Source: a virus. Taken from it: 46,291 nt of DNA. The position numbers and the translations under genes are program-made. This document shows, in pieces, positions 2,029 to 42,526 of this stretch (position 1 is its first letter; each line of letters opens with the position of its first letter). The stretch spans positions 1 through 46,291 of the IMG/VR virus record IMGVR_UViG_3300045972_000110. One strand, written 5' to 3'. Under the pieces are notes generated by a model. The model was not told where the DNA came from. It did no database searches and saw nothing but the letters and a program-made list of their open reading frames with translations.

Positions 2029-2046
2029 GGAGATCGAACTTAGAGA
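2029..2046 (-). promoter_or_regulatory. 18-bp dispersed motif, copy 1 (in attP)
   Basis: The leftward strand reads TCTCTAAGTTCGATCTCC, 16 of 18 identical to the copy before the capsid gene. It lies inside attP, between the terminator and the right arm repeats, about 210 bp before the 1819 start. Confidence 0.5.
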
Positions 2047-2087
2047 GGGCTGTTTTCAATCGAACGAAAGCATTTTTGGGCCTCTCG

Positions 2088-2108
2088 GTCATAACACTCG
2101 GTCATAAC
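2088..2108. repeat. right pair of putative integrase arm-type sites
   Basis: Two GTCATAAC copies start at 2088 and 2101, 13 bp apart. Each ends a longer CTCGGTCATAAC repeat (2084-2095 and 2097-2108). They have the same orientation and phase as the pair at 1868-1888. Confidence 0.55.
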
Positions 2109-2119
2109 CTTTTTCGATC

Positions 2120-2485
2120 TCAGCGACCCGCCTTGACCGGAGGGTAGAAAAATTCCTGGATCATCTCGCGCAGCTTTCCCTCACCCTCGGCACGCGTGGG
2201 TGCGTCGTAGGTGGGCGAGGTCATGACGAAGTCAGCAAACCACTGCCCGAACTCTTCAGACACTTCGTAGTCGAACATGCCAGGCGAGTCAGCGCCGTCG
2301 GCGATGTACCCCAGCCGAATCCCTTCAGCCAGCGGGGCGTAGTCGGTCAGCTCCTTGAACAATTCAAAGCAGCCTTTGTTCCACAGTTCCAGCAGGACAT
2401 CCATCTCTCCTCCGTGGGGAAGAGACGCGGCCATGAAGCCAGCAGTGACAGCGATATTTTCGATATGGTCTTTCGGACGTTTCAT
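2120..2485 (-). CDS. hypothetical protein (121 aa) coupled to integrase
   Basis: A 121-residue acidic protein whose ATG overlaps the integrase stop (ATGA), so it is the last gene of the integrase transcript before attP. No transmembrane segment, signal peptide or recognised motif. By position it could be a recombination directionality factor, but it is larger and more acidic than typical excisionases, so that is a guess. Confidence 0.65.
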   Translation of the reverse strand: MKRPKDHIENIAVTAGFMAASLPHGGEMDVLLELWNKGCFELFKELTDYAPLAEGIRLGYIADGADSPGMFDYEVSEEFGQWFADFVMTSPTYDAPTRAEGEGKLREMIQEFFYPPVKAGR

Positions 2486-3471
2486 TTCTTCCTCACGTTG
2501 TTTGCGAAGCCAGCAAGATAGCCAGGCGTGTGCTGTGCGTAATGAAGGACCATCCGCATATCACTCCAGCCGCCCAGGCGCATAAGTACGTCCAGAGGGG
2601 TGCCATTCTGGATGTGCCACGTGGCCCAGGTGTGTCGGAGACCGTGCCAAGTGAACCCCACATAACCGGTCTTGGTAGCTCTACCGACACCGGCCCGAAT
2701 GCAAGCGGCCATGAAGGCGGTCTTGATTTCCTTGAACGGCTTGCCTCGGAACGTAAAGACCCACTCTGAGCCTTTGCCACGGACTCGCAGCAGCGTGAGC
2801 ACTTCAACCGCGTCATCATTGAGCGGGACAGCAAGAGCCTTGCCTGCCTTGGTGTCCTGAGCGTCAACGGTGGCGAGTTTTCGCGCAAGATCGACGCTGT
2901 CCCACCGAAGTCCGAGGACATTAGATTGACGAAGTCCTGTGGAGACAGCAAATTTTGCTGGACCACGTAAGTGGACCGGGAGTTCAACATAGAGCTTGTC
3001 CCATTGCTCGTGAGTAATCCACTCACGAGATTTTGTTTTCTTGTCGGAGCGAGTCGCCAGCTTCGGGATTTCCCTCAGCCAGCCCTCGTCCTTGGCTACG
3101 TTCAAGATCGCTTGGATCATGGTCCGGTAGCGTGTGTAGGTGCCCGCCGTCTTGCAGAAGCTCAGGGCAGCGTGGATGTCCTCCCTCGTCACCGAGGTCA
3201 GCAGCCGATCCGAAAAGCCGCGCCCAAACTTGTCGAGACTCGATAACTCGCTGTCGCTGCGCTGTTCTTTGGCCTTCCACTTTTCCACGGCCAGGCTCCA
3301 GGTTTTGCCTTTGAGCTTCGGGGTCGTCTTCCATAACTCGGCCTTGATCTCGTCTTCCTTGCGACGGGCTTCGGTCTTGTCGAAGGTCCCAGTCGGCCTA
3401 CGCACGCGGTCCCCATCACGCGTGATGCTGACCCACCAGGGGCCTCCGGGATACTGCTGGTAGAGCGACAT
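2482..3471 (-). CDS. int: tyrosine integrase
   Basis: A site-specific recombinase joining phage attP to a host tRNA-Val gene. The start at 3471 has AAGGAG 6 bp upstream, giving 329 residues. An upstream alternative adds 14 residues without such a site. An N-terminal DNA-binding part is followed by a core-binding SAM-like region (about 52-140) and the catalytic domain. Catalytic residues are visible: Arg181 in TGLRQSN, Lys208 in DTKAGK, His276-x-x-Arg279 in HGLRH, Trp302 in LGGW replacing the second His, and nucleophile Tyr311 in LHYAQH. The GRGFSDRL/VTREDI region resembles shufflon-type or P4-like phage integrases. Confidence 0.95.
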   Translation of the reverse strand: MSLYQQYPGGPWWVSITRDGDRVRRPTGTFDKTEARRKEDEIKAELWKTTPKLKGKTWSLAVEKWKAKEQRSDSELSSLDKFGRGFSDRLLTSVTREDIHAALSFCKTAGTYTRYRTMIQAILNVAKDEGWLREIPKLATRSDKKTKSREWITHEQWDKLYVELPVHLRGPAKFAVSTGLRQSNVLGLRWDSVDLARKLATVDAQDTKAGKALAVPLNDDAVEVLTLLRVRGKGSEWVFTFRGKPFKEIKTAFMAACIRAGVGRATKTGYVGFTWHGLRHTWATWHIQNGTPLDVLMRLGGWSDMRMVLHYAQHTPGYLAGFANNVRKK

Positions 3472-3481
3472 GGGAATCTCC

Positions 3482-3784
3482 TTACAGACCGAGCCTCCTA
3501 CGAAGCCGGTCACTCACGCGTTGCGTGTACTTGTCGGCCCACATCACCTGTTGAGCACGACCGCTGTCGCCCCGGCGTGTGATGCCTGGGCGGTAGATGC
3601 GACCCTGCTTCTCCAGGTTGAAGAACCGAGCCGTGATAGATGAGTAGGCGAGCGTGGGGTACGCGCGGCGCAGCTCATCAGCGATGGCACCCCGGTCCTT
3701 GGTGTCGAGAATGGCCTGATAGACCAGCTCTTCCAAGGCCGAGGTGTCCACCGACAGCGCTGCTGCGATGGACGTGGAGGTCAC
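3482..3784 (-). CDS. winged-helix DNA-binding protein
   Basis: A 100-residue protein with a probable winged helix-turn-helix: AIADELRRAYPTLAYSSI is followed by a second helix and the wing LEKQGRIYRPG. Its stop is 10 bp before the integrase start, so the two are co-transcribed. It could regulate the integrase or act as an excision factor; neither role is shown by sequence alone. It overlaps the dUTPase stop by 4 bp. Confidence 0.65.
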   Translation of the reverse strand: MTSTSIAAALSVDTSALEELVYQAILDTKDRGAIADELRRAYPTLAYSSITARFFNLEKQGRIYRPGITRRGDSGRAQQVMWADKYTQRVSDRLRRRLGL

Positions 3785-4443
3785 GCTGCTTCGTCCACCG
3801 GTTCAGTGCGTGCGTACTCGACCGCCAGCAGGCCCAGGAGCTGGTCCGGCGTGTAGTCGGCATGCGTTGCCATCAGGCGCTCCAGCACGACGTTGTCCTC
3901 CTCACCGGCCCACACCTTGCGGTAGGTGCCTTCCTTGTAACCGTTGGCTTGGCGGAACAGGTTGAGCACGTTCTTGGCCACGTAGGTGGTGTAGAGCGTG
4001 TCCCAGGTCAGGCCAAAGCGGTTCATCAGCATGTTGAAGGCGGGACCGTTGAGCTGGCGCTGGTTCGCAGCGGCGGCAACCAGGAGGTCGATCAGCACCG
4101 GTGTGGGCACCGTGTTGATCTCGCCGAAGACGTTGGGGTCAGCGGCCAGCTTGCTGAAGTAGTCAGCGACTTCCAGCGCAGCGGCTTCGTAGTCGCCTTG
4201 GTGGATCGACAGGATGTGGCTCAGGGCGAAGTGCCAGATGTCCACCAGCTCCAGTTGGAGCTGAGGAATGTCGGCCTCGGGACTGGCCTTCCACCACTTC
4301 CAGCCGTAGCCTTCCAGCAGCTCAGCCGCTTCCATGTAGATCGCGCGATACCACGGGTAATCGGCGGTCAGCCAGTCAGGGTTCACCACCTTGTTGAGGC
4401 GGTCCTGCAAGCGGAACATGTCGGACAGGTGCTGGCGCATCAT
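3781..4443 (-). CDS. dimeric dUTP diphosphatase (all-alpha NTPase)
   Basis: Hydrolyses dUTP to dUMP and pyrophosphate, keeping uracil out of phage DNA and feeding dTMP synthesis. It belongs to the all-helical MazG-like dimeric dUTPase family. The metal-binding pattern is E38-x-x-E41 in MEAAELLEG with Lys/Trp-rich GWKWWK after it, then E65-x-x-D68 in LELVDIWHF. The start at 4443 is chosen because it overlaps the upstream stop (ATGATG) with a GGGGGTG ribosome site. Length of about 220 residues is normal for the family. Confidence 0.85.
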   Translation of the reverse strand: MMRQHLSDMFRLQDRLNKVVNPDWLTADYPWYRAIYMEAAELLEGYGWKWWKASPEADIPQLQLELVDIWHFALSHILSIHQGDYEAAALEVADYFSKLAADPNVFGEINTVPTPVLIDLLVAAAANQRQLNGPAFNMLMNRFGLTWDTLYTTYVAKNVLNLFRQANGYKEGTYRKVWAGEEDNVVLERLMATHADYTPDQLLGLLAVEYARTEPVDEAA

Positions 4444-4646
4444 GCTGCACCCCCGTTGTTCAGCCACTCCAGCAGACCGGCCTTGTCGGTGGGTACGTCC
4501 ACTTGGGTCTCGACGACCTCCTTGCGGGCGAAGCCTTCGGCATACAGCTCCTTACGCGTGGCCACGCCTTCAGCGGCGCTGCCGACCCACTTCGTTTTGA
4601 TCAGGACTTCGCCGTTGCCGGACGCTTTGATTTTGTACAGTCTCAT
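4440..4646 (-). CDS. hypothetical protein (68 aa)
   Basis: Small soluble protein with a beta-rich first half (MRLYKIKASGNGEVLIKTKW), coupled by ATGA overlaps to both neighbours in the dUTPase-ligase run. Similar short proteins with an x-Y-K-x-x-A-x-G-x-G start occur in many phages, but I cannot assign a function. Confidence 0.65.
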   Translation of the reverse strand: MRLYKIKASGNGEVLIKTKWVGSAAEGVATRKELYAEGFARKEVVETQVDVPTDKAGLLEWLNNGGAA

Positions 4647-5121: not shown

Positions 5122-6011
5122 GACATATCGCGCGGGTCACGCGTCCCCAGAAACACCGGGTGACGGGGCTTGTCCTTCACACCGATGGGGAAGGACTTGT
5201 ACTTGATGACGGTGCCATTGGTAGCGATACCTCGCCCCCACCACCAGGCCTTGTCGGCATCGTCGAAGCCGGTGCCAATCTGGAACTCCACCTTGGTGAC
5301 CAGGTCACGCACCAGCAGCGCGCCCATGCGGCCTTTGCCGGTCTTGTTCTCTTGATGGCTGCTGCGCTTGGTGCGGCCCAGCTCGTTGGTCTGGGCCTCA
5401 TTGCCGTTGTGCATCTCTTCGAGCACACCGATGACCTCAGCCTCACCGTCCACGAAGCGCTTCACCTTCAGCAAGAAGCCCTCCTTGGCCGTGGAGCGAC
5501 CGAACTTGTAGGGCGAATCAGGGTGGCGCAGGATCACGCCTTCATGGCCCGCCTCTAACGCCGCAGCTTCGAACTTATTCAGAGCTTCGATGTCGGGGAT
5601 GGAGACTTGCTCCAGGGATTTCACACGGTAGCCCGCGCCGTCCACGACCCGCTGCATGCGCTCGTAGCGGCTCCAGAACGGGCGGTCGGTCTCGACCTTG
5701 TCGAACACGTGGAAATTCCAGTCCGGCACCTTGGCCTCGGCCATGACGCCGGAGACCGTGTCGCGGTAGCAGGTAGGGCTGGTGGTCGGGCCGACGATCA
5801 GCTCCCCATCCAGACCTTCGAGCGAAGCCTTGGCCAACGCGTTATAGATCACCGTGTTCGGGATCAGCTTGAGCGACCGGCTCAGGAGCTGGCCGTTGCG
5901 CACCACGGCACGGATGCCGTCGAGCTTCACCGAGGCGAACATGGGGAAGCGGATGTTGTCCATGTCAGCCGGGGAGGCCAGCATGGGGCGAAATTCAGTA
6001 GGAGAAGGCAT
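5118..6011 (-). CDS. ATP-dependent DNA ligase
   Basis: Seals nicks in phage DNA through a lysyl-AMP intermediate. Motif I is K29-L-D-G-I-R in the adenylation site, motif III is LDGELIVG (Glu70), motif IV EGVILRHPDSPYKFG and motif V FLLKVKRF. A C-terminal OB-fold with GRMGALLVRDLVTKVEFQIG follows. At 297 residues it is close in size and layout to the minimal T7-type ligases. The ATG lies inside the last codons of the upstream homing-endonuclease gene (17-bp overlap), suggesting that gene inserted just upstream. Confidence 0.93.
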   Translation of the reverse strand: MPSPTEFRPMLASPADMDNIRFPMFASVKLDGIRAVVRNGQLLSRSLKLIPNTVIYNALAKASLEGLDGELIVGPTTSPTCYRDTVSGVMAEAKVPDWNFHVFDKVETDRPFWSRYERMQRVVDGAGYRVKSLEQVSIPDIEALNKFEAAALEAGHEGVILRHPDSPYKFGRSTAKEGFLLKVKRFVDGEAEVIGVLEEMHNGNEAQTNELGRTKRSSHQENKTGKGRMGALLVRDLVTKVEFQIGTGFDDADKAWWWGRGIATNGTVIKYKSFPIGVKDKPRHPVFLGTRDPRDMS

Positions 6012-6396
6012 CTTTTACTTTCCAATTCATGATGAACAAACGAGCATAGGTACGCGCGTATTGAAGACCGAACAGCTCGCACCACTCGCTCAGGCAGCGT
6101 CTTTGCCCAAGATATTCAACGACTCGGTTCTGGGAGTTGTTGCGGTTCTGCTCTGTGCGCGTGGCCCACTTGCAGTTATCGGGCGAATAGCCCTCAGAAG
6201 ATTTTTCACGGTCGAGCGAGTGACCCTCGGGTCTTTCACCCATGTCTGCCAGGAAGTTGGCGTACACCATCCACTCTGGACAGATCGTGATGCCGCGCCC
6301 ACCATAGTTCGAGTAGTGCGCGTGCTTCGGGTTCAGGCATCGCTGCTTCATCGCCTGCCAAGACTGATACGTCGGCGTGTAATGCGCCTTGCTCAT
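5995..6396 (-). CDS. HNH/AP2-type phage homing endonuclease-like protein, copy 1
   Basis: A 133-residue protein with the conserved series YQSWQAMKQRCLNP, Y-x-N-YGGRGI, CPEWM, FLADMGERP, LDR and NCKWATRTEQNRN, shared by a large family of free-standing phage endonuclease-like proteins. A C-terminal LSEWCELFGL helix resembles a DNA-binding module. A relative lies at 16328-16954. It starts by ATGA overlap with the upstream gene and ends inside the ligase start. Catalytic activity is inferred from family, not proven. Confidence 0.8.
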   Translation of the reverse strand: MSKAHYTPTYQSWQAMKQRCLNPKHAHYSNYGGRGITICPEWMVYANFLADMGERPEGHSLDREKSSEGYSPDNCKWATRTEQNRNNSQNRVVEYLGQRRCLSEWCELFGLQYARTYARLFIMNWKVKDAFSY

Positions 6397-6668
6397 TTTT
6401 TCTTACCTGAGTTGTAAGCACCCATGACGCGAAGCGCCTTGAGGCTCAGTGAGTCTTTGAATTGGGCCTGCGTCACAACCTTCCTCAGAGCGTTCAACAC
6501 ATGACCCTTGATCTCGACGGGCAGCACGTTCATGCGCCACACTTTCTTGTCGAGGTCGTAGACCTGGTAGAGGCCCCAGCCTTGCGCTGCGGCCTCTGCT
6601 TTTTCGGTCGATGTGAGATCGGTCATAGAGATTAGATTACGAGGCAGCGCCGAAGCGCTTTGTGTCAT
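6393..6668 (-). CDS. hypothetical protein (91 aa)
   Basis: Start at 6668 overlaps the upstream stop (ATGA); a later in-frame ATG at 6626 is an alternative. A middle segment WGLYQVYDLDKKVWRMNVLP suggests a small beta domain, followed by a basic C-terminal helix. The stretch before the alternative start contains AATCTAATCTCT, also found near 11350. Function unknown. Confidence 0.55.
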   Translation of the reverse strand: MTQSASALPRNLISMTDLTSTEKAEAAAQGWGLYQVYDLDKKVWRMNVLPVEIKGHVLNALRKVVTQAQFKDSLSLKALRVMGAYNSGKKK

Positions 6669-7048
6669 GGCTTTGTTTGTCGGATAGTGATCTGGAGGTG
6701 GGGAGTGGAGATGTGGATCGCCAAGCCTTCCTCTGTGATGGTGACTGAGGGGCGGTCCACCAGCAGCCGGGGGGAATACTCCACCCCGACTGCGGGGGCG
6801 CCGCTTGTTGTCTCTTTCCACTGGTAGCTCCAGCGAGCGCGTGACCCGCCTTCAGTCGAAGCAGTGGGGAGTCGTGTCACAAAACCTTTGCGCCACAATC
6901 CCCCGAGATAGTCAGAGACACGATTTGCCGTGGCCGCATATTCGCGGACCTCTGGCATATCAAATAGCTGGTTGCAATCCATGGGCTGGCCCTTGTCTCG
7001 CAGAATTTTCTCCAGGGCGTTGTACAGCCCCTTCTCAGAATGTCTCAT
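6665..7048 (-). CDS. winged-helix-like DNA-binding protein
   Basis: A 127-residue protein with an N-terminal winged-helix pattern: helices in LYNALEKILRDKGQPMD and TANRVSDYLGGLWRKGFV, then a wing. A beta-rich tail follows. GGAGAGAG precedes the ATG, and the 72-bp gap upstream contains a candidate promoter, so it may be transcribed separately. A regulatory role is plausible but unproven. Confidence 0.6.
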   Translation of the reverse strand: MRHSEKGLYNALEKILRDKGQPMDCNQLFDMPEVREYAATANRVSDYLGGLWRKGFVTRLPTASTEGGSRARWSYQWKETTSGAPAVGVEYSPRLLVDRPSVTITEEGLAIHISTPHLQITIRQTKP

Positions 7049-7970: not shown

Positions 7971-8416
7971 ATCACCTCCACGTGCGTGACGAACTCGAAG
8001 AACTCCTGGAGCGCTTCGGGCGAGTTGAAGCGGATGCCCTGCTCGCCGGAAGTGGTCGCCACGAAGTCCACGCCACGGCCCTTGAGGCTGATCACGGCAG
8101 TGTCGCCTTCTTCTTCGAAGAGAGCGGTGATGTGGTTGCCCTTGGCGTTCAGCACAGTGCTGCCGATCTTCAGATCGGCATCATCGGGCATGGGCACAGC
8201 GGCCTGGTTGATGCCAGCCTTGGCACGGCGTTCCTGGCAACCAATGCAGTTGCACTGCTCGGGTTCGCTCGTGCCGCCGACCGTAGCCGTACCGCTGCGC
8301 TCCTTGTTCGCACGCTCCAGTGCTTCACGGATCACGTCACCGAGGGTCTTGCCTTCGGTAGGGCCAGCCTGTTTGGCGGCGTCCATGCCGGGGAACATTT
8401 TGTCTTTTTCGATCAT
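7967..8416 (-). CDS. hypothetical protein with Cys cluster (149 aa)
   Basis: The N-terminal half is charged and helical. A short CNCIGCQERR cluster follows, then a beta-rich C-terminal half (STVLNAKGNHITALF to FEFVTHVEVM). The three closely spaced Cys could bind zinc. Co-translated between the exonuclease and the DUF6378-like gene. Function unknown. Confidence 0.6.
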   Translation of the reverse strand: MIEKDKMFPGMDAAKQAGPTEGKTLGDVIREALERANKERSGTATVGGTSEPEQCNCIGCQERRAKAGINQAAVPMPDDADLKIGSTVLNAKGNHITALFEEEGDTAVISLKGRGVDFVATTSGEQGIRFNSPEALQEFFEFVTHVEVM

Positions 8417-8958
8417 GTCTTCACCTTCTTGTTGAGGAACAGAGCCTTGTGGATCGCGCTCACGGTTTGCGCCTGCTGATACGCATCAGACAGTGCGTTG
8501 TGCTTCACTCCCAAAGGCGGGACACGGATGTCCTTGGCTCCAGGCAAATTCTTGTAGGTGCGGTAGCAGCGCGAGTTCCAGAACTTCCACGGGATCTCAA
8601 TCTGCTGTTGCGTGTACGCATGGGCCAGCATGGGCAGATCAAAATCCGCGCCGTTGGACCACATCTCGTACTTGTCGTTACCGATCCAGTCGCTGAACTC
8701 TCCGAGCGCAGTGGTCAGCGTTTCCTTGGCTTCCCGGAAAACCTGCTGGGCAGATGCTTCCTGGTTGAACCACCAGATCAAGGTGTCCTCGCTGATGCGC
8801 CGCTTCCAGTCCAGGTTCGATTCAACGGACACCGAACGGTAGAAACCGTCGTTGTCAATCTCTCCGGTGACCAGATCAAATTTCACAGCGCCGATGGACA
8901 GAATGACCGCATCTGCGGTGGTGCCCAACGTCTCCAAGTCAACCATTACGTGCTTCAT
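8413..8958 (-). CDS. DEDDh 3'-5' exonuclease (exonuclease-T/DnaQ-like)
   Basis: Start at 8958 (MKHVMVDLETLG) has GGGAG at proper spacing; an upstream TTG adds only two residues. The exonuclease motifs are all visible: ExoI D7-L-E9, ExoII NGADFDLPML, ExoIII HNALSDAYQQA. The family (PF16473-like) trims 3' ends of DNA or RNA. It is the first gene of a coupled run preceded by an 18-bp motif, so it probably heads an operon. Confidence 0.9.
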   Translation of the reverse strand: MKHVMVDLETLGTTADAVILSIGAVKFDLVTGEIDNDGFYRSVSVESNLDWKRRISEDTLIWWFNQEASAQQVFREAKETLTTALGEFSDWIGNDKYEMWSNGADFDLPMLAHAYTQQQIEIPWKFWNSRCYRTYKNLPGAKDIRVPPLGVKHNALSDAYQQAQTVSAIHKALFLNKKVKT

Positions 8959-8977
8959 GCACAACTCCCGTTTGTTG

Positions 8978-8995
8978 TTCGATCTATGACAGATT
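8978..8995 (-). promoter_or_regulatory. 18-bp dispersed motif, copy 2
   Basis: The leftward strand reads AATCTGTCATAGATCGAA, 19 bp before the exonuclease start. It aligns without gaps to the copy before the primase-helicase. Confidence 0.5.
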
Positions 8996-9038
8996 TAAGA
9001 TCGGGGCGCGAATAGTACCGCAGGAAAAATCCGACTAT

Positions 9039-9098: not shown

Positions 9099-9104
9099 AG
9101 TCGT

Positions 9105-9398
9105 TTAGGCGACAGCGGCAGTCGGTTCCAGTGCGGCCAGCTTGGCGTTGATCTTCTCGGCGCCCTTGGCGGCAGCAGCAGCGGCCTTGTCGGCTTTGGC
9201 CTGGGCCAGTGCATGCGCCTTTTGAGCGACAGCCACAGCTTTGTCGGCTTCCTTCTTGGCAGCGGCCAGTGCCTTAGCGGCAGAGGTCACAGCTTCGGTG
9301 TGGGGCTTCAGAGCTTCCTTCTGGGCCTTCAGCAAAGACACGAGGTCCTTCTTGGTGGCTTTGATTTCAGCGGGGGTGAGAGTGGGTTTCTTTGCCAT
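9105..9398 (-). CDS. Lys/Ala-rich coiled-coil protein (97 aa)
   Basis: A low-complexity helical protein dominated by Ala and Lys, for example AAKALAAAKKEADKAVAVAQ. The TPAEIKATKKDLVSLL start is amphipathic. The composition recalls histone-H1-like or structural coiled-coil proteins, so DNA or nucleoid binding is possible but not shown. TAGGAG ribosome site; followed by the G11 tract and hairpins. Confidence 0.65.
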   Translation of the reverse strand: MAKKPTLTPAEIKATKKDLVSLLKAQKEALKPHTEAVTSAAKALAAAKKEADKAVAVAQKAHALAQAKADKAAAAAAKGAEKINAKLAALEPTAAVA

Positions 9399-9443
9399 TT
9401 TGGTTTCTCCTAGTTGGCGATTGCGGGACTTGTTTGCTTTGAG

Positions 9444-10890: not shown

Positions 10891-11298
10891 TTAGGTGGTG
10901 GAACGCAGGTTGATGCGCTTCTTGGTGAAGGGCACGACGCCCGGTACTTTCTTCCCGTGATCCCACAATTCGCGGACACCAGGATCGGATGCGCGCTTCT
11001 GGACCAAGTGCCAGAACTTGTTCTTCGCGATGTACGGAAAGAACAGGTCCCAGTCCTGGACATCGGCAACGGTGGAGGAGGTGATAGAGACGGTGGCCTT
11101 GGTGCCGGTGGCCTTTTCCAGGCCCTCTGCATCCAGGCGTTCCATGAGACCTTCTTCGATCTCTTTGATACGACCCTCGACCTCCTTGAGAGTCGCTTCC
11201 AGGCCGCGCTTCTCTTCGCGGCAGGCCCAGAGCTGGTCGATGACCGCGCCGACAGAGGCGACGCGACCGGGGGTCTTTGCTTTCGTGGCAGTTGCCAT
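10891..11298 (-). CDS. hypothetical coiled-coil protein (135 aa)
   Basis: Start at 11298 (MATATKAKTPG) is chosen for GGAG 8 bp upstream. A coiled coil at about residues 20-55 (EKRGLEATLKEVEGRIKEIE) is followed by a beta-containing domain with DWDLFFPYIAKNKFWHLVQ. Proteins of this layout lie beside single-stranded-DNA-binding genes in other phages. No function can be assigned. It is probably the first gene of its transcript. Confidence 0.65.
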   Translation of the reverse strand: MATATKAKTPGRVASVGAVIDQLWACREEKRGLEATLKEVEGRIKEIEEGLMERLDAEGLEKATGTKATVSITSSTVADVQDWDLFFPYIAKNKFWHLVQKRASDPGVRELWDHGKKVPGVVPFTKKRINLRSTT

Positions 11299-11334: not shown

Positions 11335-11352
11335 ACAGATCGTACATAGAGA
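11335..11352 (-). promoter_or_regulatory. 18-bp dispersed motif, copy 3
   Basis: The leftward strand reads TCTCTATGTACGATCTGT, 36 bp before the 11298 start, and is followed by CTTAGATTGTG. The TACGATCT...TTAGATT arrangement is shared with the site before the capsid gene. Confidence 0.5.
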
Positions 11353-11357
11353 TTAGA

Positions 11358-14690: not shown

Positions 14691-14708
14691 TTCGATCTTT
14701 CTTAGAGA
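14691..14708 (-). promoter_or_regulatory. 18-bp dispersed motif, copy 4
   Basis: The leftward strand reads TCTCTAAGAAAGATCGAA and ends one base before the 14689 ATG. Its TAA is also the helicase stop. It is identical in 17 of 18 bases to the copy at 27224-27241. Confidence 0.55.
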
Positions 14709-16240
14709 GTAGAGAAGAGGTCGAGCAAATTCGACATGCGCTTGTCCTTGCCTTCCAGAATCTCGGCCACCAGTTCTTCGCGCGTGTCCTTTGCCGTGAC
14801 GATGATGTTCTCGGTCTTCTTGGTCTGACCCATGCGGGCCTGACGTTTGGAGCCTTGCTTGAACACCTCCAGGTCGTAGGTCGGGCCAGGCCAGATGGTG
14901 GCCGTGCCCTTGGTCAGCGTGAGGCCATGTGCTGCGCTCTTCGGGTGAGCGAAGATCGTGCAGTAGGCACCGGCCTGGTAGCGCTTCACGATGGCGTCGC
15001 GTTCAGCATCCTTCACGCTGCCATCAATGACAGCGAACGTGATGCCACGGCGCTCGGCCTCGGAGACCAGCAGATCGCGCTGGTGCTTCCAGTAGAAAAA
15101 GCACAGGCTATGCTTGCGCGCTTCGATCAGGTCCAGGATCATGTCGTAGCGATCCGTGTCGATCACGTGGTACTTGTTCTCCGACTCGTACACCGCGCCG
15201 GAGGCAACCTGGAGCAGCTTCTGTGCGAGCACGCCAGCATGCTGGGCAGTGATGCTGGCCTTGGGCACGAGCTTCTGGCCACGCAAGCGGGCCAGGGCGC
15301 GCACCTCGGGCGGGCCGTAGATCGTGAGCATGCAGGTCTCCAGCATCTCGTCGTACGCCTTGCGGTGGCGCGGGTTCAGCTCGAAGGGCACCTGGTACTG
15401 GTGCGTGGGCGGGATGTCCACACAGTCCTCGAAGTTGTGGCGGATCACGATGTCGCTGAGCAGGCCGAACACAGCCTCTTCAGCGCCATCACGGTCGGTC
15501 CACTGGATGGCCTTCTCGTTCTGGCCCACTTGCTTCGGTATGCACACCGTGTTGCGGAACGCATAGAACGAGGGGCCAAGGCGCTTGCCCTGGTCCAGGA
15601 TGTAGACCTGGTGCCACACGTCGGTGATGCCGTTGCTGGTGGGCGTGCCCGTCATGCAGCAGCGGTACTTGAAGTGCTTGGCAATCTTGGCCGCAGCCTT
15701 GGAGCGCTGCGATGAGTGGTGTTTGTAGGCCGTGCTCTCGTCGACCACCAGCTCACTGAAGCGTTCGAAGAACTTGGGCTTCTGCTTGGCCAGCCACTTC
15801 ACCGCGTCGATGTTGGTGACGTAGACATCAGCCTGCTGGGCGAACACCTCTTCGTGTTTGCCTGCTGTGCTTACTGCCACCGTGAGGCTTGGGGCGAACT
15901 TCTTGATGTCGTTCATCCAGACCGAACGCAGTAAAGATTTCGGCGCGAGCACGAGCATAGATCGCCCAGGCGTCGAGGCGGTCGCTGTGACGCGCTTTGA
16001 GCTGCGGCCACTCGTCGATGACGATGCGCCCCGTAGTCGTGCCTCGAAGGCTTTGATCCGTACATACGTCTTCCCCGTACCAGGGTCCGAGCAGTCGAAG
16101 ACTATGTCGGTTTTCTCGTTGTGCTTGAGCGACTTGATCTGATGCGCGAAGGGCTTGATTTCGACGGGACTGGCTTTGGAGAGTTTGTTCTGCTTCGAAG
16201 CGCCGCGCAAGGCTGAGTGCGTCGGGGTAGATGCGGCCAC
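14702..16240 (-). CDS. SNF2/SF2-family DNA helicase
   Basis: A DNA-dependent ATPase/translocase of superfamily 2, frequent in phage replication regions. The Q-motif region IKPFAHQ leads to Walker A DPGTGKT (K57), motif II DEST (167-170, in place of DEAH), motif III MTGTPTSNG, and the C-terminal RecA fold with FFYWKHQRDLL, IDGSVKDAERDAIV and motif VI-like KQGSKRQARMGQ. GTG start with AAAGGA upstream. An internal ALARLRGQKL (315-324) happens to resemble the C-terminal tag of the small proteins. Confidence 0.9.
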   Translation of the reverse strand: MAASTPTHSALRGASKQNKLSKASPVEIKPFAHQIKSLKHNEKTDIVFDCSDPGTGKTYVRIKAFEARLRGASSSTSGRSSKRVTATASTPGRSMLVLAPKSLLRSVWMNDIKKFAPSLTVAVSTAGKHEEVFAQQADVYVTNIDAVKWLAKQKPKFFERFSELVVDESTAYKHHSSQRSKAAAKIAKHFKYRCCMTGTPTSNGITDVWHQVYILDQGKRLGPSFYAFRNTVCIPKQVGQNEKAIQWTDRDGAEEAVFGLLSDIVIRHNFEDCVDIPPTHQYQVPFELNPRHRKAYDEMLETCMLTIYGPPEVRALARLRGQKLVPKASITAQHAGVLAQKLLQVASGAVYESENKYHVIDTDRYDMILDLIEARKHSLCFFYWKHQRDLLVSEAERRGITFAVIDGSVKDAERDAIVKRYQAGAYCTIFAHPKSAAHGLTLTKGTATIWPGPTYDLEVFKQGSKRQARMGQTKKTENIIVTAKDTREELVAEILEGKDKRMSNLLDLFSTL

Positions 16241-17656: not shown

Positions 17657-17674
17657 TTCGATCTAATTTAGAGC
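17657..17674 (-). promoter_or_regulatory. 18-bp dispersed motif, copy 5
   Basis: The leftward strand reads GCTCTAAATTAGATCGAA, 7 bp before the nuclease ATG. Its TAA is the stop of the 17668-18099 gene. The inner TCTAAATTAGA is an almost perfect palindrome. Confidence 0.55.
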
Positions 17675-18099
17675 TTCGATCTTATATCATTCTCAAGATC
17701 GACGGAATAATCCGAGCTGATGGACTGGACTAGGGAGGCGAGTTCCCACGGACTGTCACCGAAAGTTTTCTCTTCGATGTCAGTGTTTTCTTCGCCGATG
17801 CGAATGAAGATGCCTGACGAAGTGGAGGCGGTCTCGTTGCCAGCAAAGTGCTTCCAGAGTTGCATGATCCGGTCCACATCAGGGTAACCGTCGTACCACT
17901 TCCAGTGCGAGGCCACAAAGCAGAGCGTGAGAACATTGCCAGTCTCGTTCTTGGTGATGGACATGTGCTCTACGCACGGGTCCTTGTCGGAAGAGTCGGG
18001 GGCGACCCACGGGTTCTTCAGTCGGAACGCAGCCCAGGTCGTGAGGAGTTCCTCCTCTGGGCCTTGAATGGTCATCTGTACATCGCTGCGGTAGCCCAT
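17668..18099 (-). CDS. conserved phage protein, MGYRSDV family
   Basis: A 143-residue protein beginning MGYRSDVQMTIQG, the hallmark start of a widespread phage family of unknown function. An aromatic FVASHWKWYDGYPDVDRI segment and an acidic C-terminus follow. AAAGGTG ribosome site; three bases downstream of the VWA-metallopeptidase gene. Function unknown. Confidence 0.75.
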   Translation of the reverse strand: MGYRSDVQMTIQGPEEELLTTWAAFRLKNPWVAPDSSDKDPCVEHMSITKNETGNVLTLCFVASHWKWYDGYPDVDRIMQLWKHFAGNETASTSSGIFIRIGEENTDIEEKTFGDSPWELASLVQSISSDYSVDLENDIRSKL

Positions 18100-23083: not shown

Positions 23084-23101
23084 TTAGATCGAAAACAGAG
23101 T
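23084..23101 (-). promoter_or_regulatory. 18-bp dispersed motif, copy 6
   Basis: The leftward strand reads ACTCTGTTTTCGATCTAA, 26 bp before the 23057 start. It differs from the primase-helicase copy mainly at the CGATCT/AGATCG positions. Confidence 0.55.
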
Positions 23102-23106
23102 ATAGA

Positions 23107-27223: not shown

Positions 27224-27241
27224 TTCGATCTTTCTTAGAGG
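27224..27241 (-). promoter_or_regulatory. 18-bp dispersed motif, copy 7
   Basis: The leftward strand reads CCTCTAAGAAAGATCGAA, ending 2 bp before the 27221 ATG. Unlike copies 4 and 5, its TAA is not a stop codon of the preceding gene, so the conservation is not due to coding. Confidence 0.55.
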
Positions 27242-27248
27242 TTAGATT

Positions 27249-31392: not shown

Positions 31393-31410
31393 TTCGATCT
31401 AAAACAGAGC
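31393..31410 (-). promoter_or_regulatory. 18-bp dispersed motif, copy 8
   Basis: The leftward strand reads GCTCTGTTTTAGATCGAA, 27 bp before the primase-helicase ATG, at the edge of the AT-rich region. Confidence 0.55.
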
Positions 31411-31630
31411 TTCGAACCAAAAGGCATAAGACCTGTTCATAAGCCCTGTTTCCCTCTATACCTCTATATACCTTATACTCTTATACTTATAATCTTATCT
31501 TATCAATTAGAGAATATTATTTTAAGTAAGTAGATTAGTAATTGTCTATATAGAGATAGGGACGGCCAAAAGCCTAAGACCCCAGCCTCTACTCAGGTAT
31601 TACCCATCGACCCAGGCCAGGGAAATAGGC
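31411..31630. other. AT-rich non-coding region, candidate replication origin
   Basis: No gene is seen between the primase-helicase and the 31664 gene. About 31445-31560 is strikingly AT-rich in a GC-rich genome. Its first 60 bases on the + strand contain no G and include repeated CTTATACT/TTATA units. CCTCTATATA near the start and TATATAGAGATAGGG near 31546-31560 form an imperfect inverted repeat. Next to the primase-helicase this fits an origin or a strong promoter region. Confidence 0.45.
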
Positions 31631-33086: not shown

Positions 33087-33129
33087 GTTGATACACATGA
33101 CGAAAAGGCCCAGCACCTTGCGGTGCTGG
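33087..33129 (-). terminator. terminator-leader repeat A
   Basis: The leftward strand has stem CCAGCACC-GCAA-GGTGCTGG, then GCCTTTTCG, then TGTGTATCAAC, ending 20 bp before the 33066 start. First of five such units between here and 34.7 kb. Confidence 0.7.
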
Positions 33130-33137
33130 TCTTTGGG

Positions 33138-33416
33138 TCAGCCGTAAACCACGTCACCCTTGCTGGTGCGGATGACACCGCTGAGCCAGCCGAAGCTGTC
33201 GCGTTCACCACACCGAACAGGGAAGCCGTGTTGTGCAAGCACGCGATGGTTTACATAGTTGCAACCACCACGGCTGTCGATTAGGTCACCGTCTGCTTCA
33301 TTCACTGCTTGTTGCAGCAGTGGATGAAGTTCATCGTGGTAACCATTGGTGAGGCACGTGGCGGGTTTGATGTCGTCACATGCTTCGATTGCTTTGAGAA
33401 CTTCGATGAGTTTCAT
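33138..33416 (-). CDS. hypothetical protein (92 aa)
   Basis: Start at 33416 (MKLIEVLKAIEACDDIKP) with GAAAGAAAG upstream. Contains GFPVRCGERDSFGWLSGVI and ends near repeat A. No family recognised. Bounded on both sides by terminator-leader repeats, so it is a one-gene unit. Confidence 0.6.
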   Translation of the reverse strand: MKLIEVLKAIEACDDIKPATCLTNGYHDELHPLLQQAVNEADGDLIDSRGGCNYVNHRVLAQHGFPVRCGERDSFGWLSGVIRTSKGDVVYG

Positions 33417-33431
33417 ACTTTCTTTCTGGGG

Positions 33432-33474
33432 GTTGATACACACCCCAAAAAGACCCGACGCCTTCAGGCGTCGG
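33432..33474 (-). terminator. terminator-leader repeat B
   Basis: Stem CCGACGCC-TGAA-GGCGTCGG, then GTCTTTTTGGGG, then TGTGTATCAACC, 15 bp before the 33416 start (leftward strand). Confidence 0.7.
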
Positions 33475-33483
33475 AATCTCTCG

Positions 33484-33747
33484 TTAGTCCAAGCCGTGCT
33501 TGGTCAGAAGCTCTTCGTACTTCGCTTCAAGCACATCGTCGTACTCATGCGAGTTAGGCCCAACGAGTTCAGCAGCAGCGATCTGTGCTTCGTCGTACAG
33601 CCGGTCACGCAGCGTGGCACGTTGTGTTTCAGGCGTGCTGAGACTCTTGAGTGGTGGACGGACGTAGCCATCCAACACATTGGTGAGCACAGGCTGCTTC
33701 ATGCACAGTGCGATGTATTTGGCCTCGTCGATTTTGGTGCGGATCAT
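33484..33747 (-). CDS. hypothetical protein (87 aa)
   Basis: Start at 33747 by ATGA overlap with the upstream gene. An acidic helical 87-residue protein (IDEAKYIALCMKQPVLTN, EYDDVLEAKYEELLTKHG). Ends 10 bp before hairpin B. Function unknown. Confidence 0.6.
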   Translation of the reverse strand: MIRTKIDEAKYIALCMKQPVLTNVLDGYVRPPLKSLSTPETQRATLRDRLYDEAQIAAAELVGPNSHEYDDVLEAKYEELLTKHGLD

Positions 33748-33953
33748 GATGCACACAGAGCACGTTTGACACGAGCTTCATAGTTGGGCGGCATGAATTG
33801 CACGACGGACTCGGTGACGATGTGCGACTTGTCATGACCTTTGCTACGCAACCAGTTACGCCACTCAGTGGCGATGGTGATGTCGTCGAAGATCATGGTC
33901 TGCGATACAGGCTTATCGCCTTTGCAGATGTTCAGCTTGTAGACGGCTGGCAT
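33744..33953 (-). CDS. hypothetical protein (69 aa)
   Basis: Start at 33953 (MPAVYKLNICKG) with AAGGAG upstream. Contains MIFDDITIATEWRNWLRSKG and a C-terminal VVQFMPPNYEARVKR. It is preceded by repeat C and coupled to the next gene. Function unknown. Confidence 0.6.
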   Translation of the reverse strand: MPAVYKLNICKGDKPVSQTMIFDDITIATEWRNWLRSKGHDKSHIVTESVVQFMPPNYEARVKRALCAS

Positions 33954-33968
33954 GTGTTTACTCCTTGG

Positions 33969-34011
33969 GTTGATACACATGACGAAAAGGCCCGAGTGCC
34001 TGAGCACCCGG
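33969..34011 (-). terminator. terminator-leader repeat C
   Basis: Stem CCGGGTGC-TCAG-GCACTCGG (one G-T), then GCCTTTTCG, then TGTGTATCAACC and AAGGAG before the 33953 start (leftward strand). Confidence 0.7.
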
Positions 34012-34020
34012 TCTTGTCGT

Positions 34021-34329
34021 TCACTTCAACTCCTCGGCTCCATACTTGATGAGACCGACGTGGTAGTAGCGGCCACTCTCGATGTAGCCGTAGATCATCC
34101 GAGCACCTTGCACGGTAATCATCGAGCAGATGAACGAGGCGATGCCGGACATCGTTCCAATCAGTGTGCCCCAGTGAATTGCTAAGTTCAGAGCCAAAAC
34201 TAATACGTGCACCGCATTGCGTTTCTCACTGCCGAGCAGCCTGAGCCGAGCACGTGGAGACAGCATGCTCAGCAGCACGAACTCGAACAGCACATTGAGT
34301 GCACCGAACACAAACACAGCTTCAATCAT
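34021..34329 (-). CDS. hypothetical membrane protein (102 aa)
   Basis: Hydrophobic segments at about residues 4-24, 41-53 and 56-74 (GTMSGIASFICSMITV) suggest two or three membrane helices, with a basic loop PRARLRLLGSEKRN between. AGGAG lies a little far (10 bp) before the ATG. Function unknown. Confidence 0.65.
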   Translation of the reverse strand: MIEAVFVFGALNVLFEFVLLSMLSPRARLRLLGSEKRNAVHVLVLALNLAIHWGTLIGTMSGIASFICSMITVQGARMIYGYIESGRYYHVGLIKYGAEELK

Positions 34330-34368
34330 TTTCCCATACTCCTAATTTGATAGCACGGGAACAGCTCC

Positions 34369-34408
34369 CATACACACGCCGAAAAGGCCCGAGCGCCTGG
34401 GCGCTCGG
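34369..34408 (-). terminator. terminator-leader repeat D
   Basis: Stem CCGAGCGCC/GGCGCTCGG with a two-base spacer, then GCCTTTTCGGCG, then TGTGTATGGGAG: the only copy in which TATCAACC is changed. 39 bp before the 34329 start. Confidence 0.65.
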
Positions 34409-34415
34409 TCTCTGC

Positions 34416-34658
34416 TCATGCGAGCACTCGGGTCACAGTGCGCGAGCCTGTGCGTGTGGACTCGCAGGTATGGCCATCGCGGTTCTCCCAGCGCCATGTC
34501 TTGGAGACAGGTGCCTTGGGCGCAGCCGGTGTGGCGATGCAGCCGCGCGTTGCGAGCAACGCTTCGAGTTCTGCGATGCGTGCTTTCTGTGCGCGGTACA
34601 CATCAGCAGCGATGACGAGACGGGCCTCTGCGGCAATGAGGGCTTTGGACTTGGCCAT
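34416..34658 (-). CDS. hypothetical coiled-coil protein (80 aa)
   Basis: Start at 34658 (MAKSKALIAAEARLVIAADV) with AAAGGAG upstream. The N-terminal helix is a likely coiled coil (KARIAELEALLATRG), then an Ala/Pro linker and a basic WRWENRDGHTCESTR tail. Function unknown. Confidence 0.6.
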   Translation of the reverse strand: MAKSKALIAAEARLVIAADVYRAQKARIAELEALLATRGCIATPAAPKAPVSKTWRWENRDGHTCESTRTGSRTVTRVLA

Positions 34659-34679
34659 GGAGTACTCCTTTGTTGGCGG

Positions 34680-34722
34680 GTTGATACACACGCCGAAAAG
34701 GCCCGAGCGCCTTGGCGCTCGG
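34680..34722 (-). terminator. terminator-leader repeat E
   Basis: Stem CCGAGCGCC-AA-GGCGCTCGG, then GCCTTTTCGGCG, then TGTGTATCAACC, 21 bp before the 34658 start. Nearly identical to repeat D in the hairpin. Confidence 0.7.
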
Positions 34723-34760
34723 TCTCTCGTTTCCCACTTCCCCATTTGCTCCAGCCAAGG

Positions 34761-35019: not shown

Positions 35020-35273
35020 AACAATCTCCTAGTTAAGAGCGAACATGCTCAAACACCTACACAGACCCGATCAGCTTGCTGATCGGAACCAAGCGCCAGA
35101 CACACGGCCCGGCGCGAAGAGACTCCTTTACCTCGAACGCGAATCCGAATCCGAAGTGGGGTCGTCTTTCGCGCGAGGTAGAGGAGAGACTCACGAGACC
35201 GTAAGAATCCAAAATTTTTATAAAATTTTTTCTGCTCTAATCTCTTACTTCGATTTAACTTAGAATCCCGCAC
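35020..35273. promoter_or_regulatory. divergent control region between early and late arms
   Basis: No gene in 254 bp. It holds a perfect hairpin CCGATCAG-CTTG-CTGATCGG (35067-35086) and a gapped inverted repeat TACCTCG...CGAGGTA (about 35131-35183). It also holds the CGAATCCGAATCCGAA tandem, an AAAATTTTTATAAAATTTTTT stretch near 35211-35231, and an 18-bp motif copy next to the terminase gene. Leftward and rightward transcripts both start from here. Confidence 0.65.
35241..35258 (+). promoter_or_regulatory. 18-bp dispersed motif, copy 9
   Basis: Reads TCTCTTACTTCGATTTAA in the rightward direction, 15 bp before the small terminase ATG, followed by TAGAAT (35261-35266). Confidence 0.5.
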
Positions 35274-35876
35274 ATGGCACGAGCAATGACACCCGGTGAA
35301 GCAAAGCGCAAAGTTCGTCTCAAGGACGTGAACATCGCCAAGGTGCGCGGCAAAGAAACCACGACCATGGCACGCGCCGCCGCAGTCTCCGTGGACAAGC
35401 CACTGACCGAGCAGCAGACCCTGTTCGTCCAATACTGGGCCGAGGGCGACTCCCTGCCCAACGCATACCAGCGTGCCGGGTACTCCATCAACGACATCTC
35501 GTATGCCTACCGCATGCAGAAGATGCCCAACATCCTGAAGCAGTACAACCTGGTGAAAGCCCAGTGGCAGGAGGCCGCGCAGCTCCGTCGTGAGGACGTG
35601 ATCCACGGCCTGAAGGAGTCCATCGAGATGGCCAAGCTCATGAGCGAACCCGCCACCATGATTGCGGGCTGGCGTGAGATCGGCAAGCTGTGCGGCTACT
35701 ACGAGCCGAAGAAGGTGGACGTGAACGTGAATGTGAACGGCTCCATCGTCCTGGAAAACATGAACAAGATGTCGGACGCCGACCTCCTCAAAATCATCAA
35801 TGAAGCGGCCGCTGCGGGCGTGGAACAAGCATCACTGCTGGACCACGACGATGGCGACGAAGACACCCCCGAATAA
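35274..35876 (+). CDS. terminase small subunit
   Basis: A 200-residue DNA-recognition subunit of the packaging motor. The central part fits the Terminase_2 family: LTEQQTLFVQYWAEGDSLPN, AYQRAGYS as helix-turn-helix, and LKQYNLVKAQWQEAAQLRRE, then a conserved EIGKLCGYYEPKKV segment. No ribosome site precedes the ATG, and TAGAAT ends 7 bp before it, so the message may be leaderless. A later ATG at 35367 is an alternative but also lacks one. It overlaps the large subunit by 26 bp. Confidence 0.85.
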   Translation: MARAMTPGEAKRKVRLKDVNIAKVRGKETTTMARAAAVSVDKPLTEQQTLFVQYWAEGDSLPNAYQRAGYSINDISYAYRMQKMPNILKQYNLVKAQWQEAAQLRREDVIHGLKESIEMAKLMSEPATMIAGWREIGKLCGYYEPKKVDVNVNVNGSIVLENMNKMSDADLLKIINEAAAAGVEQASLLDHDDGDEDTPE

Positions 35877-37539: not shown

Positions 37540-37545
37540 CCCGCC

Positions 37546-37911: not shown

Positions 37912-37977
37912 TCCACAACCCCCAAGGAATGATGGGCCTCGTGCCCGGACTTTGTACCAACAAAGCCCGAGCACACC

Positions 37978-41174: not shown

Positions 41175-41195
41175 CAAACCCAAGGAGAACCACAA

Positions 41196-41555
41196 ATGAT
41201 CAAGCCAACCGTAGGCCGCAAGGTCTGGTATCGCCACGACAAATCACCCACATCGCTCGGGAACAACAACTACCTGTACCCTGCGCAAATTTCTGGACAG
41301 CCGATGGACGCAACTATCGTGTACGTCTGGGACGACCGCATGGTCAACCTCCACGTCATGGACCACTATGGCAACAGCTTCAACCGCACCAGCGTGAAGC
41401 TGTTGCAAGACGGCGATGTCTCTCCCGAGGGCGGCGCCTACGCCGAGTGGATGCCCTACCAGGCGGGCCAGGCCGCACGAGAGCGCCGCGTTGATACCGC
41501 CATCGCGCGCACCATGACCTTTGGTGCTGCCGACGGTCGTGCGGAGGGCCAGTAA
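41196..41555 (+). CDS. conserved hypothetical phage protein (119 aa)
   Basis: A 119-residue protein: KPTVGRKVWYR, YPAQISGQPMDATIVYVWDD, RMVNLHVMDHYGN. This matches a conserved phage family often found near gp49-like genes. AAGGAG ribosome site. It may be virion-associated by context; function unknown. Confidence 0.75.
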   Translation: MIKPTVGRKVWYRHDKSPTSLGNNNYLYPAQISGQPMDATIVYVWDDRMVNLHVMDHYGNSFNRTSVKLLQDGDVSPEGGAYAEWMPYQAGQAARERRVDTAIARTMTFGAADGRAEGQ

Positions 41556-41556
41556 C

Positions 41557-41964
41557 ATGCACAACATCACCTCACCCCGCACCGACGACAGCGCCATCGA
41601 ACAGGAGATCAAGGCCAAGGGCCTGACTGCTCCGCGCGTCACGCCCGCCGACCTGGAAGCGAACATCGCTTACCGCCACTTCTTCACCGCCGAGCAGGCG
41701 GTGTTCGGCAAAGCCGCCTGGGCCGCCTGGGCCGCAGACGCCGACCTGCCTGTCGGCAGAGTGGTCTGGGGGGGCAGCACCGGTCTGAACCTGCTGACCT
41801 TCTGCGTCCTGGTGCTGAAGAACGGCTTCACCGTCACCGGTGAGAGCGCCTGCGCCTCTCCCGAGAACTTCGACGCCGAGATCGGCAAGAAGATCGCCCT
41901 GGAGAATGCCAAGCAGAAAATCTGGCCCCTCATGGGCTACGCGCTGAAGGAGAGCCTGGCATGA
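41557..41964 (+). CDS. N4 gp49 / Sf6 gp66-like protein
   Basis: A 135-residue member of the Phage_gp49_66 family: ITSPR, RVTPADLEANIAYRHFFTAE, then the signature LLTFCVLVLKNGFTVTGESA and ASPENFDAEIGKKIALENAK, KIWPLMGYAL. Its role is unknown despite wide occurrence. Start at 41557, directly after the upstream stop; an earlier in-frame start overlaps that gene. Confidence 0.9.
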   Translation: MHNITSPRTDDSAIEQEIKAKGLTAPRVTPADLEANIAYRHFFTAEQAVFGKAAWAAWAADADLPVGRVVWGGSTGLNLLTFCVLVLKNGFTVTGESACASPENFDAEIGKKIALENAKQKIWPLMGYALKESLA

Positions 41965-42320
41965 AATCCGCCGTCCACTCCATCGCCCGCGTCTGCCACG
42001 AAGTGAACGCGGCCTACTGCGCTGCCCTCGGCGACAAGTCCCAACCCGAATGGGACGACGCGCCCCAGTGGCAGAAGGACTCGGCCATTGCCGGTGTTGA
42101 GCTGCACCTTGCCAACCCCGACCTCGGCGTCGATGCTTCCCACCAGGCGTGGATGGAGCAGAAGCGCGCCGACGGCTGGACCTACGGCCCGCTGAAGGAC
42201 CCGGTCAAGAAGGAGCATCCCTGCTATGTCCCGTACGCTGATCTGCCGCCCGAGCAGAAAGCCAAAGACTTTATTTTTCGCGGTGTCGTACACGCCATCG
42301 CGCGCGAAATGGCACGCTGA
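41961..42320 (+). CDS. RyR-domain protein
   Basis: A 119-residue protein built on one RyR domain: CHEVNAAYCAALGD, PEWDDAPQWQKDSAIAGVEL, ASHQAWMEQKRADGWTYGPL, KDPVKKEHPCYVPYADLPPE, QKAKDFIFRGVVHAI. Such domains occur in phages and bacteria and may bind nucleotides or adenine-like ligands. Starts by ATGA overlap with the gp49-like gene, a common pairing. A terminator follows. Confidence 0.9.
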   Translation: MKSAVHSIARVCHEVNAAYCAALGDKSQPEWDDAPQWQKDSAIAGVELHLANPDLGVDASHQAWMEQKRADGWTYGPLKDPVKKEHPCYVPYADLPPEQKAKDFIFRGVVHAIAREMAR

Positions 42321-42365
42321 CCAACCCGTGTAGTTGTCTCCCTGCATGGGGTGCCATGCTTGAAG

Positions 42366-42397
42366 CCCGGTCGCTCACAAGGTGACCGGGTCTTTTT
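42366..42397 (+). terminator. rho-independent terminator before the capsid unit
   Basis: Stem CCCGGTC/GACCGGG with an inner TCAC/GTGA, followed by TCTTTTTATT. It ends the terminase-portal transcript and is followed at once by the capsid promoter region. Confidence 0.85.
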
Positions 42398-42414
42398 ATT
42401 TGCGTACGATCTAA
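42397..42414 (+). promoter_or_regulatory. 18-bp motif variant (copy 10) within candidate capsid promoter
   Basis: TATTTGCGTACGATCTAA is a weaker match. TTGCGT (42400-42405), a 16-bp spacer and TAGAAT (42422-42427) form a plausible sigma-70 promoter. The element contains the palindrome TCTAATTTAGA. Confidence 0.5.
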
Positions 42415-42508
42415 TTTAGATTAGAATGCGGCCATCGGTTAAGGCAAGGTCACGACAGCACCTTCCACACTCGCTTGTCGGGGCGATATTCGACGTTGGG
42501 TTATCTAT

Positions 42509-42526
42509 TCTCTAACTTCGATCTAA
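42509..42526 (+). promoter_or_regulatory. 18-bp dispersed motif, copy 11
   Basis: TCTCTAACTTCGATCTAA merges into AAAGGAGG, the capsid gene's ribosome site, 12 bp before its ATG. The gap 42428-42508 shows nothing else. Confidence 0.55.

Follow-up and report, generated by a model that had tools for sequence, protein, structure and literature searches.

A 23-bp gene-start element and the predicted winged-helix protein that tracks it in a phage lineage of Burkholderiales: candidate dispersed repressor operators

Introduction

Dispersed asymmetric operators of a single repressor are found in phage P1, a temperate phage of Proteobacteria, where the C1 protein, which is larger than the protein described here, acts at sites of ~17 bp. 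In cluster A mycobacteriophages, such as L5 and TipsytheTRex, more than 20 dispersed asymmetric sites at promoters and in short intergenic spaces are oriented with transcription and bound by the immunity repressor; as described in PMC9283540, the site has 13 bp, the repressor is a monomer of 183 residues with a helix-turn-helix (HTH) and a second DNA-binding 'Stoperator' domain, repression has been shown, and reversal of L5 stoperators abolishes it. In the papers cited here, the stoperator systems with a known repressor are those of mycobacteriophages. The start-associated sequences (SAS) and ESAS of cluster K are one-orientation repeats within a few bases of start codons, and some include the upstream stop codon; the SAS have 13 bp (GGGATAGGAGCCC), contain a Shine-Dalgarno core 3-7 bp before starts and occur in the non-structural half only, and no protein was known to bind them in PMC3203893. 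The repeats of T1 and Citrobacter phage Stevie, according to PMC4319613, are asymmetric, mainly intergenic and in one orientation in phages of Gram-negative hosts; the phages are described there as lytic and the role of the repeats as unknown. Here, we analyze a 23-bp element in a linear IMG/VR virus record of 46.3 kb (IMGVR_UViG_3300045972_000110, positions 1 to 46,291; hereafter, the window), in which an original prediction made from the letters alone had described an 18-bp motif before start codons. We confirm that the motif is real, and we suggest, with a probability of roughly 0.6, that the sites serve as dispersed operators for a repressor encoded by the phage itself, a predicted winged-helix protein that we call REG, in a temperate lineage of Burkholderiales phages.

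Because many relatives with long records reach ~60-72 kb, the window is apparently a fragment of a longer genome. The cultured phages closest to it in terminase and primase, at ~41-42% identity, include the Pseudomonas phages KPP25 and phiR18. Leftward genes in its left arm encode integrase, ligase, polymerase, helicase and primase, and rightward genes in its right arm encode terminase, portal and capsid. Genes were called with a simple in-house caller, which overlooked some short genes and put 35049-35828 on the wrong strand in place of the small terminase gene.

Results

The motif lies within a 23-bp element made up of four pentamers

All eleven sites of the original prediction were found. 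Its consensus is matched exactly at seven sites in the window and at none in 60 order-2 Markov shuffles; with at most one mismatch, the count is 12 in the window and 0.15 on average in a shuffle. Among the nine headline sites, those at 8978 and 35241 each depart from this consensus at one position, and the further site at 11335 departs at two. The 18-mer is, however, the inner portion only of a longer unit, as bases upstream of it are also conserved. Alignment of the flanks and a scan of ten relatives and KPP25 gave a 23-bp element of four pentamers, TCKAA-NN-TCKAA-N-TTMGA-TCKAA. Pentamers 1 and 2 are direct repeats with 7-bp spacing, pentamers 2 and 3 are inverted about one base, and pentamers 3 and 4 together read TTMGATCKAA. 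Across 78 aligned sense sites, the TC or GA steps in pentamers 1-3 are 96-99% invariant.

At a threshold of at least 16 of the 20 fixed positions, 22 genomes were grouped by their counts as motif-rich (11 genomes, 7-15 sites), weak (5 genomes, 2-5 sites) or poor (6 genomes, 0-1 site), against shuffled means of 0-1.2. The two sub-types recognized earlier, CGATCTAA and AGATCGAA, both exist but are not separate, since TTCGA-TCTAA and TTAGA-TCGAA are reverse complements. In a set of 136 sites from the motif-rich genomes and two prophages, with sites close to record ends dropped, 61 qualified for a count of sub-type covariation; 44 had the two expected combinations, 10 the other two and 7 something else, and because the sites are related by descent, these are not independent events.

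At the same threshold, the window has 13 matches, mostly sense-oriented at gene starts. Those outside called genes, together with partial copies, are as follows:

6614..6636, minus strand: element, 16/20; the second pentamer overlaps the ATG that starts gene 6393-6626
8978..9000, minus strand: element, 16/20; 19 bp before the called start of the exoribonuclease-like gene 8413-8958
11335..11357, minus strand: element, 16/20; 36 bp before gene 10891-11298, a placement found in 7/11 motif-rich genomes
14691..14713, minus strand: element, 17/20; in-frame ATG one base downstream, with the same placement in relative G003
17657..17679, minus strand: element, 20/20; 7 bp before the exonuclease-like gene 16954-17649 (8/11 motif-rich genomes)
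23084..23106, minus strand: element, 17/20; intergenic, before a short leftward open reading frame (ORF) overlooked by the caller
27224..27246, minus strand: element, 18/20; 2 bp before ORF 27027-27221
31393..31415, minus strand: element, 18/20; 27 bp before the primase-like gene 28987-31365 (5/11 motif-rich genomes)
35236..35258, plus strand: element, 18/20; 15 bp before the small terminase gene 35274-35876
42390..42420, no strand assigned: partial, near-palindromic copy (42397 in the original prediction), directly after a terminator-like hairpin and upstream of the capsid gene
42504..42526, plus strand: element, 19/20; 12 bp before the capsid gene 42539-43657 (5/11 motif-rich genomes)
2029..2046, minus strand: partial copy without the first pentamer, between the end of the integrase operon and a tRNA-Val-like sequence

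Counts of conserved placement use a cut-off of at least 15/20, at which one of five REG-less genomes also scores at the exonuclease-like gene. Orientation with the downstream gene and a position just before its start, as had been claimed, hold for most sites. The 2029 copy precedes no start; it lies past the last gene of a leftward operon, beside the tRNA-Val-like (attP-like) sequence. The earlier site list had also overlooked the copy at 6614-6636, although a copy is there in 9 of the 10 motif-rich genomes with gene 6393-6626 (77 aa). For the gene by the 14691 site, the caller chose a later start, 14659, and G003 has at 31960 a site and ORF comparable to those at 23084.

Three matches, at 5568, 26177 and 33384, are inside called genes and may be due to chance. 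The first (5568-5590; 17/20) is within the DNA ligase gene, where G001 and G002 score 17-18 and G003 scores 16, reflecting either protein constraint or a real internal site. With such coding matches, AT-rich words and the common GATC, chance, codon bias or a host-regulon site might be invoked for the element as a whole. We regard this as very improbable: shuffles and the reversed consensus gave almost no matches, and in two bacterial genomes described below, all matches are in the prophage (G027) or on the contig with REG (eight in Variovorax).

The element is a family trait

A list of sites from the 11 motif-rich genomes has 116 entries, under a merging rule slightly wider than that of the 22-genome count; 78 of them are mostly intergenic, although only 8.6% of the DNA is intergenic. 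By nearest start, 79 are in sense orientation, 10 are opposite and 27 have no start near. Sense sites accompany 70 of 963 gene starts in these genomes versus 0 of 480 in the six poor relatives. Blind motif discovery on both strands of intergenic DNA, in a set of 17 genomes (G005, G020, G021, G022 and G024 were outside it), gave the element as top motif in 10, the window included, and did not recover it in the REG-less G006, G019 and KPP25. The element is a family trait of this phage lineage. KPP25 has its own intergenic repeat instead, AATTTCGTAACA (L126/L127, about 26.4-26.8 and 58.2 kb).

Two approaches were discarded. Motif discovery in upstream regions that included coding sequence returned codon-like motifs for the window, G004, G006, G009, G012 and KPP25. 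A variant half-site for the weak clade, TCTAT/ATAGA, has 0-2 copies in G016, G017, G018 and G022, yet 3 in G011 and 1 in some others.

A predicted winged-helix protein tracks the element

The gene whose presence follows the element was identified by co-occurrence and characterized by alignment, structural modeling and fold matches:

6665..7048, minus strand: REG, 127-aa predicted winged-helix protein, candidate repressor

Gene-presence comparison followed by tblastn placed REG in 16 of 16 motif-rich and weak genomes and in 0 of 6 poor ones, which fits its earlier nomination as a binding candidate; the second nominee, 3482-3784, had tblastn matches in the window and G002 alone and does not fit. 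The nearest other presence patterns are those of the integrase and of a 97-aa low-complexity protein (9105-9398). The latter was rejected as the tracking protein: by gene grouping, it is in 11/11 motif-rich genomes but also in one REG-less genome and 1/5 weak genomes, and tblastn confirmed it in seven genomes. In a four-gene tree, the REG-less G005 and G006 stand beside the REG-bearing G004, and the REG-less G019 stands beside the REG-bearing G016 and its kin. Because REG-less lineages nest inside the REG-bearing tree, the presence pattern is not one deep split, and joint loss of REG and the sites has apparently occurred more than once. REG loci were found in viral contigs (51) and bacterial genomes (7). 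Beyond the 22-genome set, 37 of 45 loci have a site, with 79 sites versus 1 for the reversed consensus. Terminase-bearing records, most of them fragments, were checked in part, and 4 of 35 have REG.

No Pfam match was obtained for REG up to E = 1, and sequence searches of the PDB and of phage and plasmid records gave 0 matches. Its predicted model (mean predicted local distance difference test score, 83.7) comprises a winged helix and a second small beta part. Helices at residues 5-19, 25-29 and 41-53 and strands at 57-61 and 73-77 form a helical HTH core followed by a two-stranded wing. The model aligns with winged helices such as Zalpha, PerR, Zur and MarR at Z 8.6-10.4 over 57-71 residues, a comparison that concerns the winged helix and barely covers the C-terminal part. 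Foldseek gave no match at E < 0.001, and in the fold search, no repressor family stood clearly above other winged helices. Domains of the CI type (HTH_3) over the cut-off number 0 in the 11 motif-rich genomes.

These features bear on the nucleic acid that is recognized. A protein bound to the transcribed element could block translation, and sense orientation and proximity to start codons would suit such an RNA-level operator. Some copies also seem to contain a Shine-Dalgarno-like word (e.g., G002 55366), and such words precede motif genes less often (45% of 51) than other genes (61% of 926). However, because the half-sites are inverted, the covarying sub-types are reverse complements and the protein that follows the element is predicted to be a winged helix, recognition of DNA is the better fit. 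Moreover, among the 136 sites, there are intergenic copies in the opposite orientation (7) or without a start near (23). We consider an RNA-level operator quite unlikely.

Site placement argues for repression rather than promoter function

Recognition of the element as a phage-specific promoter, by a phage polymerase, a phage sigma factor or a host polymerase redirected by REG, would explain why the sites share one orientation and stand at gene starts in the left and right arms alike. Sigma-70-like pairs scoring at least 9 are near 23% of 90 sites versus 13% of 450 random intergenic stretches, a mild excess, and sigma-like domains are encoded in G012 (3736-4590), G004 (52051-52584) and G007 (55181-55639; all in joined-record coordinates). 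These are only 3 of 11 motif-rich genomes, and the domains belong to more than one family. A single-subunit RNA polymerase (PF00940) was found in 0 of 11 motif-rich genomes and 0 of 12 relatives searched alongside a T7 control, in which it was detected; for the window, this negative covers the fragment only. The distance from site to start varies, and there is no fixed -10 or -35 box outside the element. Sense sites end at distances of -13 to 59 bp from start codons, a conserved site (the 6614 type) includes the ATG of its gene in several genomes, and no phage polymerase was found; we therefore favor repression over activation or promoter function and hold the promoter to be unlikely. The proteins encoded at 41196-42320 were tried as sigma relatives and found no support.

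Most element-bearing phages have an integrase, and a relative occurs as a prophage

Two features of the left arm point to integration:

2482..3513, minus strand: tyrosine integrase (PF00589, 3.6e-27)
1905..1981, plus strand: tRNA-Val(GAC)-like sequence, probable attP, beside the integrase

A tyrosine integrase domain is present in 13 of 16 REG-bearing versus 0 of 5 REG-less records; in KPP25, the sixth REG-less genome, integrase was checked by tblastn alone. A relative is integrated as a 70-kb prophage in the bacterial contig G027:C17, with phage-like genes over 31-100 kb and a 48-bp direct repeat (30146-30193 and 100425-100472) that contains the 3' part of a tRNA-Val(GAC) gene. The window's tRNA-Val-like sequence shares 61 of 77 bases with the tRNA-Val at this prophage end, and the 3' part is most alike. 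On either side of it, within 1870-2110, there are CTCGGTCATAAC-type repeats (near 1878 and at about 2077-2108) that look like integrase arm sites.

In the 6.4-Mb G027 genome, 11 of 11 element matches are within the prophage, and in Variovorax sp. J22R133, 8 of 8 are on contig C10, which bears phage-like genes including REG. Another five host genomes carry 1-4 matches apiece, and some of these are on other contigs. Where hosts of REG loci are named, they belong to Variovorax, Polaromonas, Rhodoferax, Herminiimonas and Janthinobacterium, which we take to be Burkholderiales. Judged by gene content and prophages, the element-bearing phages are a predicted temperate lineage of Burkholderiales. G001 has no integrase; its REG frame is interrupted by a stop at residue 76 and encodes Ala in place of the invariant Gly55, and the genome keeps 13 sites. 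If the stop is no sequence error, G001 would look like a recent virulent derivative.

Other repeats and noncoding features of the window

A noncoding block at ~35105-35205, before the small terminase gene (…GAGACTCCTT…GAATCCGAAGTGGGG…GAGACTCAC…), was seen by eye in most relatives and may be a packaging site or a structured RNA; it is followed by an AT-rich AAAATTTT block. A leader-and-hairpin repeat (ATACACA…AAAAGGCCC…; family D1) has five copies between small leftward genes at 33091-34727 and a weaker sixth at 28272. At 27249-28990, stretches of 44-55 nt are repeated over adjacent small ORFs, as in tandem gene duplicates (families D2, D4, D11 and D14).

Discussion

We find an element that is real, conserved and operator-like in its placement at gene starts, and REG is a strong candidate for its regulator. 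Among the three options raised in the original prediction, repressor operators of a stoperator-like kind are favored because the presence of the element follows that of a predicted winged-helix gene and of the integrase and because the sites comprise dyad half-sites; a phage-specific promoter and an RNA-level operator are both disfavored. We suggest that the winged helix of REG binds TCKAA/TTMGA half-sites as double-stranded DNA and that, in a lysogen, REG would block transcription that begins at or runs past numerous gene starts of both arms, in the manner of L5-type stoperators. Binding of the element by REG is highly probable, and repression by REG for lysogeny is reasonably likely. That bound sites stop elongation, and not initiation alone, is the least certain step, at slightly less than even odds. 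More speculatively, one bound site might block both transcription across a gene boundary and the start of translation, with operators laid over promoters, ribosome-binding sites and start codons, and REG might represent a new repressor family with an origin independent of mycobacteriophage stoperators; we regard this extended proposal as doubtful.

REG might instead be a regulator of the lytic cycle that acts on the same sites, either as an activator or to shut off early genes. REG sits among replication-arm genes, and G017 and G018 have REG and no tyrosine integrase. By contrast, the same genomes lost both REG and integrase, and sites that abut or overlap starts leave little space to activate the downstream start. 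A lytic role is, in our estimate, a long shot.

Several observations weigh against REG as a lysogeny repressor acting at these sites. First, only six genomes lack REG, and two of them, G005 and G006, are near-identical. Second, 8 of the 45 further REG loci have 0 sites, and blind intergenic discovery gave other motifs in the REG-bearing G009, G016, G017 and G018. Third, in most genomes, there is no element close before REG, and half-site-like words are there in some. Fourth, the winged-helix fold assigned by the model is a common one and says nothing of REG function. Fifth, G017 and G018 combine REG with few sites, HTH_3 domains over the cut-off and no PF00589 integrase; they need a different explanation or a different type of integrase. 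Finally, the in-frame stop in G001 could be a sequence error. We nevertheless favor dispersed repressor operators.

If this is true, a different protein with different sites would do the job of stoperators in Burkholderiales phages, which would suggest more than one evolutionary origin for genome-wide silencing at gene boundaries. The system lends itself to testing, as it comprises a single small protein and a single 23-bp site, and both natural lysogens and relatives that lost the pair exist. In literature on stoperators (including Burkholderia, Variovorax and proteobacteria), start-associated sequences, Kochitakasuvirus/KPP25 and P1 C1 operators, neither the element nor REG appears in titles or abstract openings.

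Among known systems, the P1 C1 operators as generally described are similar in being dispersed asymmetric sites in a temperate phage of Proteobacteria. REG has no HTH_3 domain, unlike phage repressors of the CI type, and unlike in T7-type promoter systems, no single-subunit RNA polymerase was found in the element-bearing genomes searched. SAS resemble the element in their single orientation close to start codons; by contrast, an AGGAG core is missing from the element, its distance from starts ranges from -13 to 59 bp, and it is found in both arms, including at the capsid and terminase genes. The element shares with the T1 and Stevie repeats, as these are described, an asymmetric form, mainly intergenic positions and one orientation. 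With L5 stoperators, it shares many dispersed sites, one orientation relative to transcription and short intergenic spaces. However, a 23-bp element of four pentamers contrasts with a 13-bp site, and REG, a 127-aa predicted winged helix that would act as a repressor, contrasts with the 183-residue cluster A protein. By analogy, the element would work like stoperators, yet it should not be filed under the L5 system.

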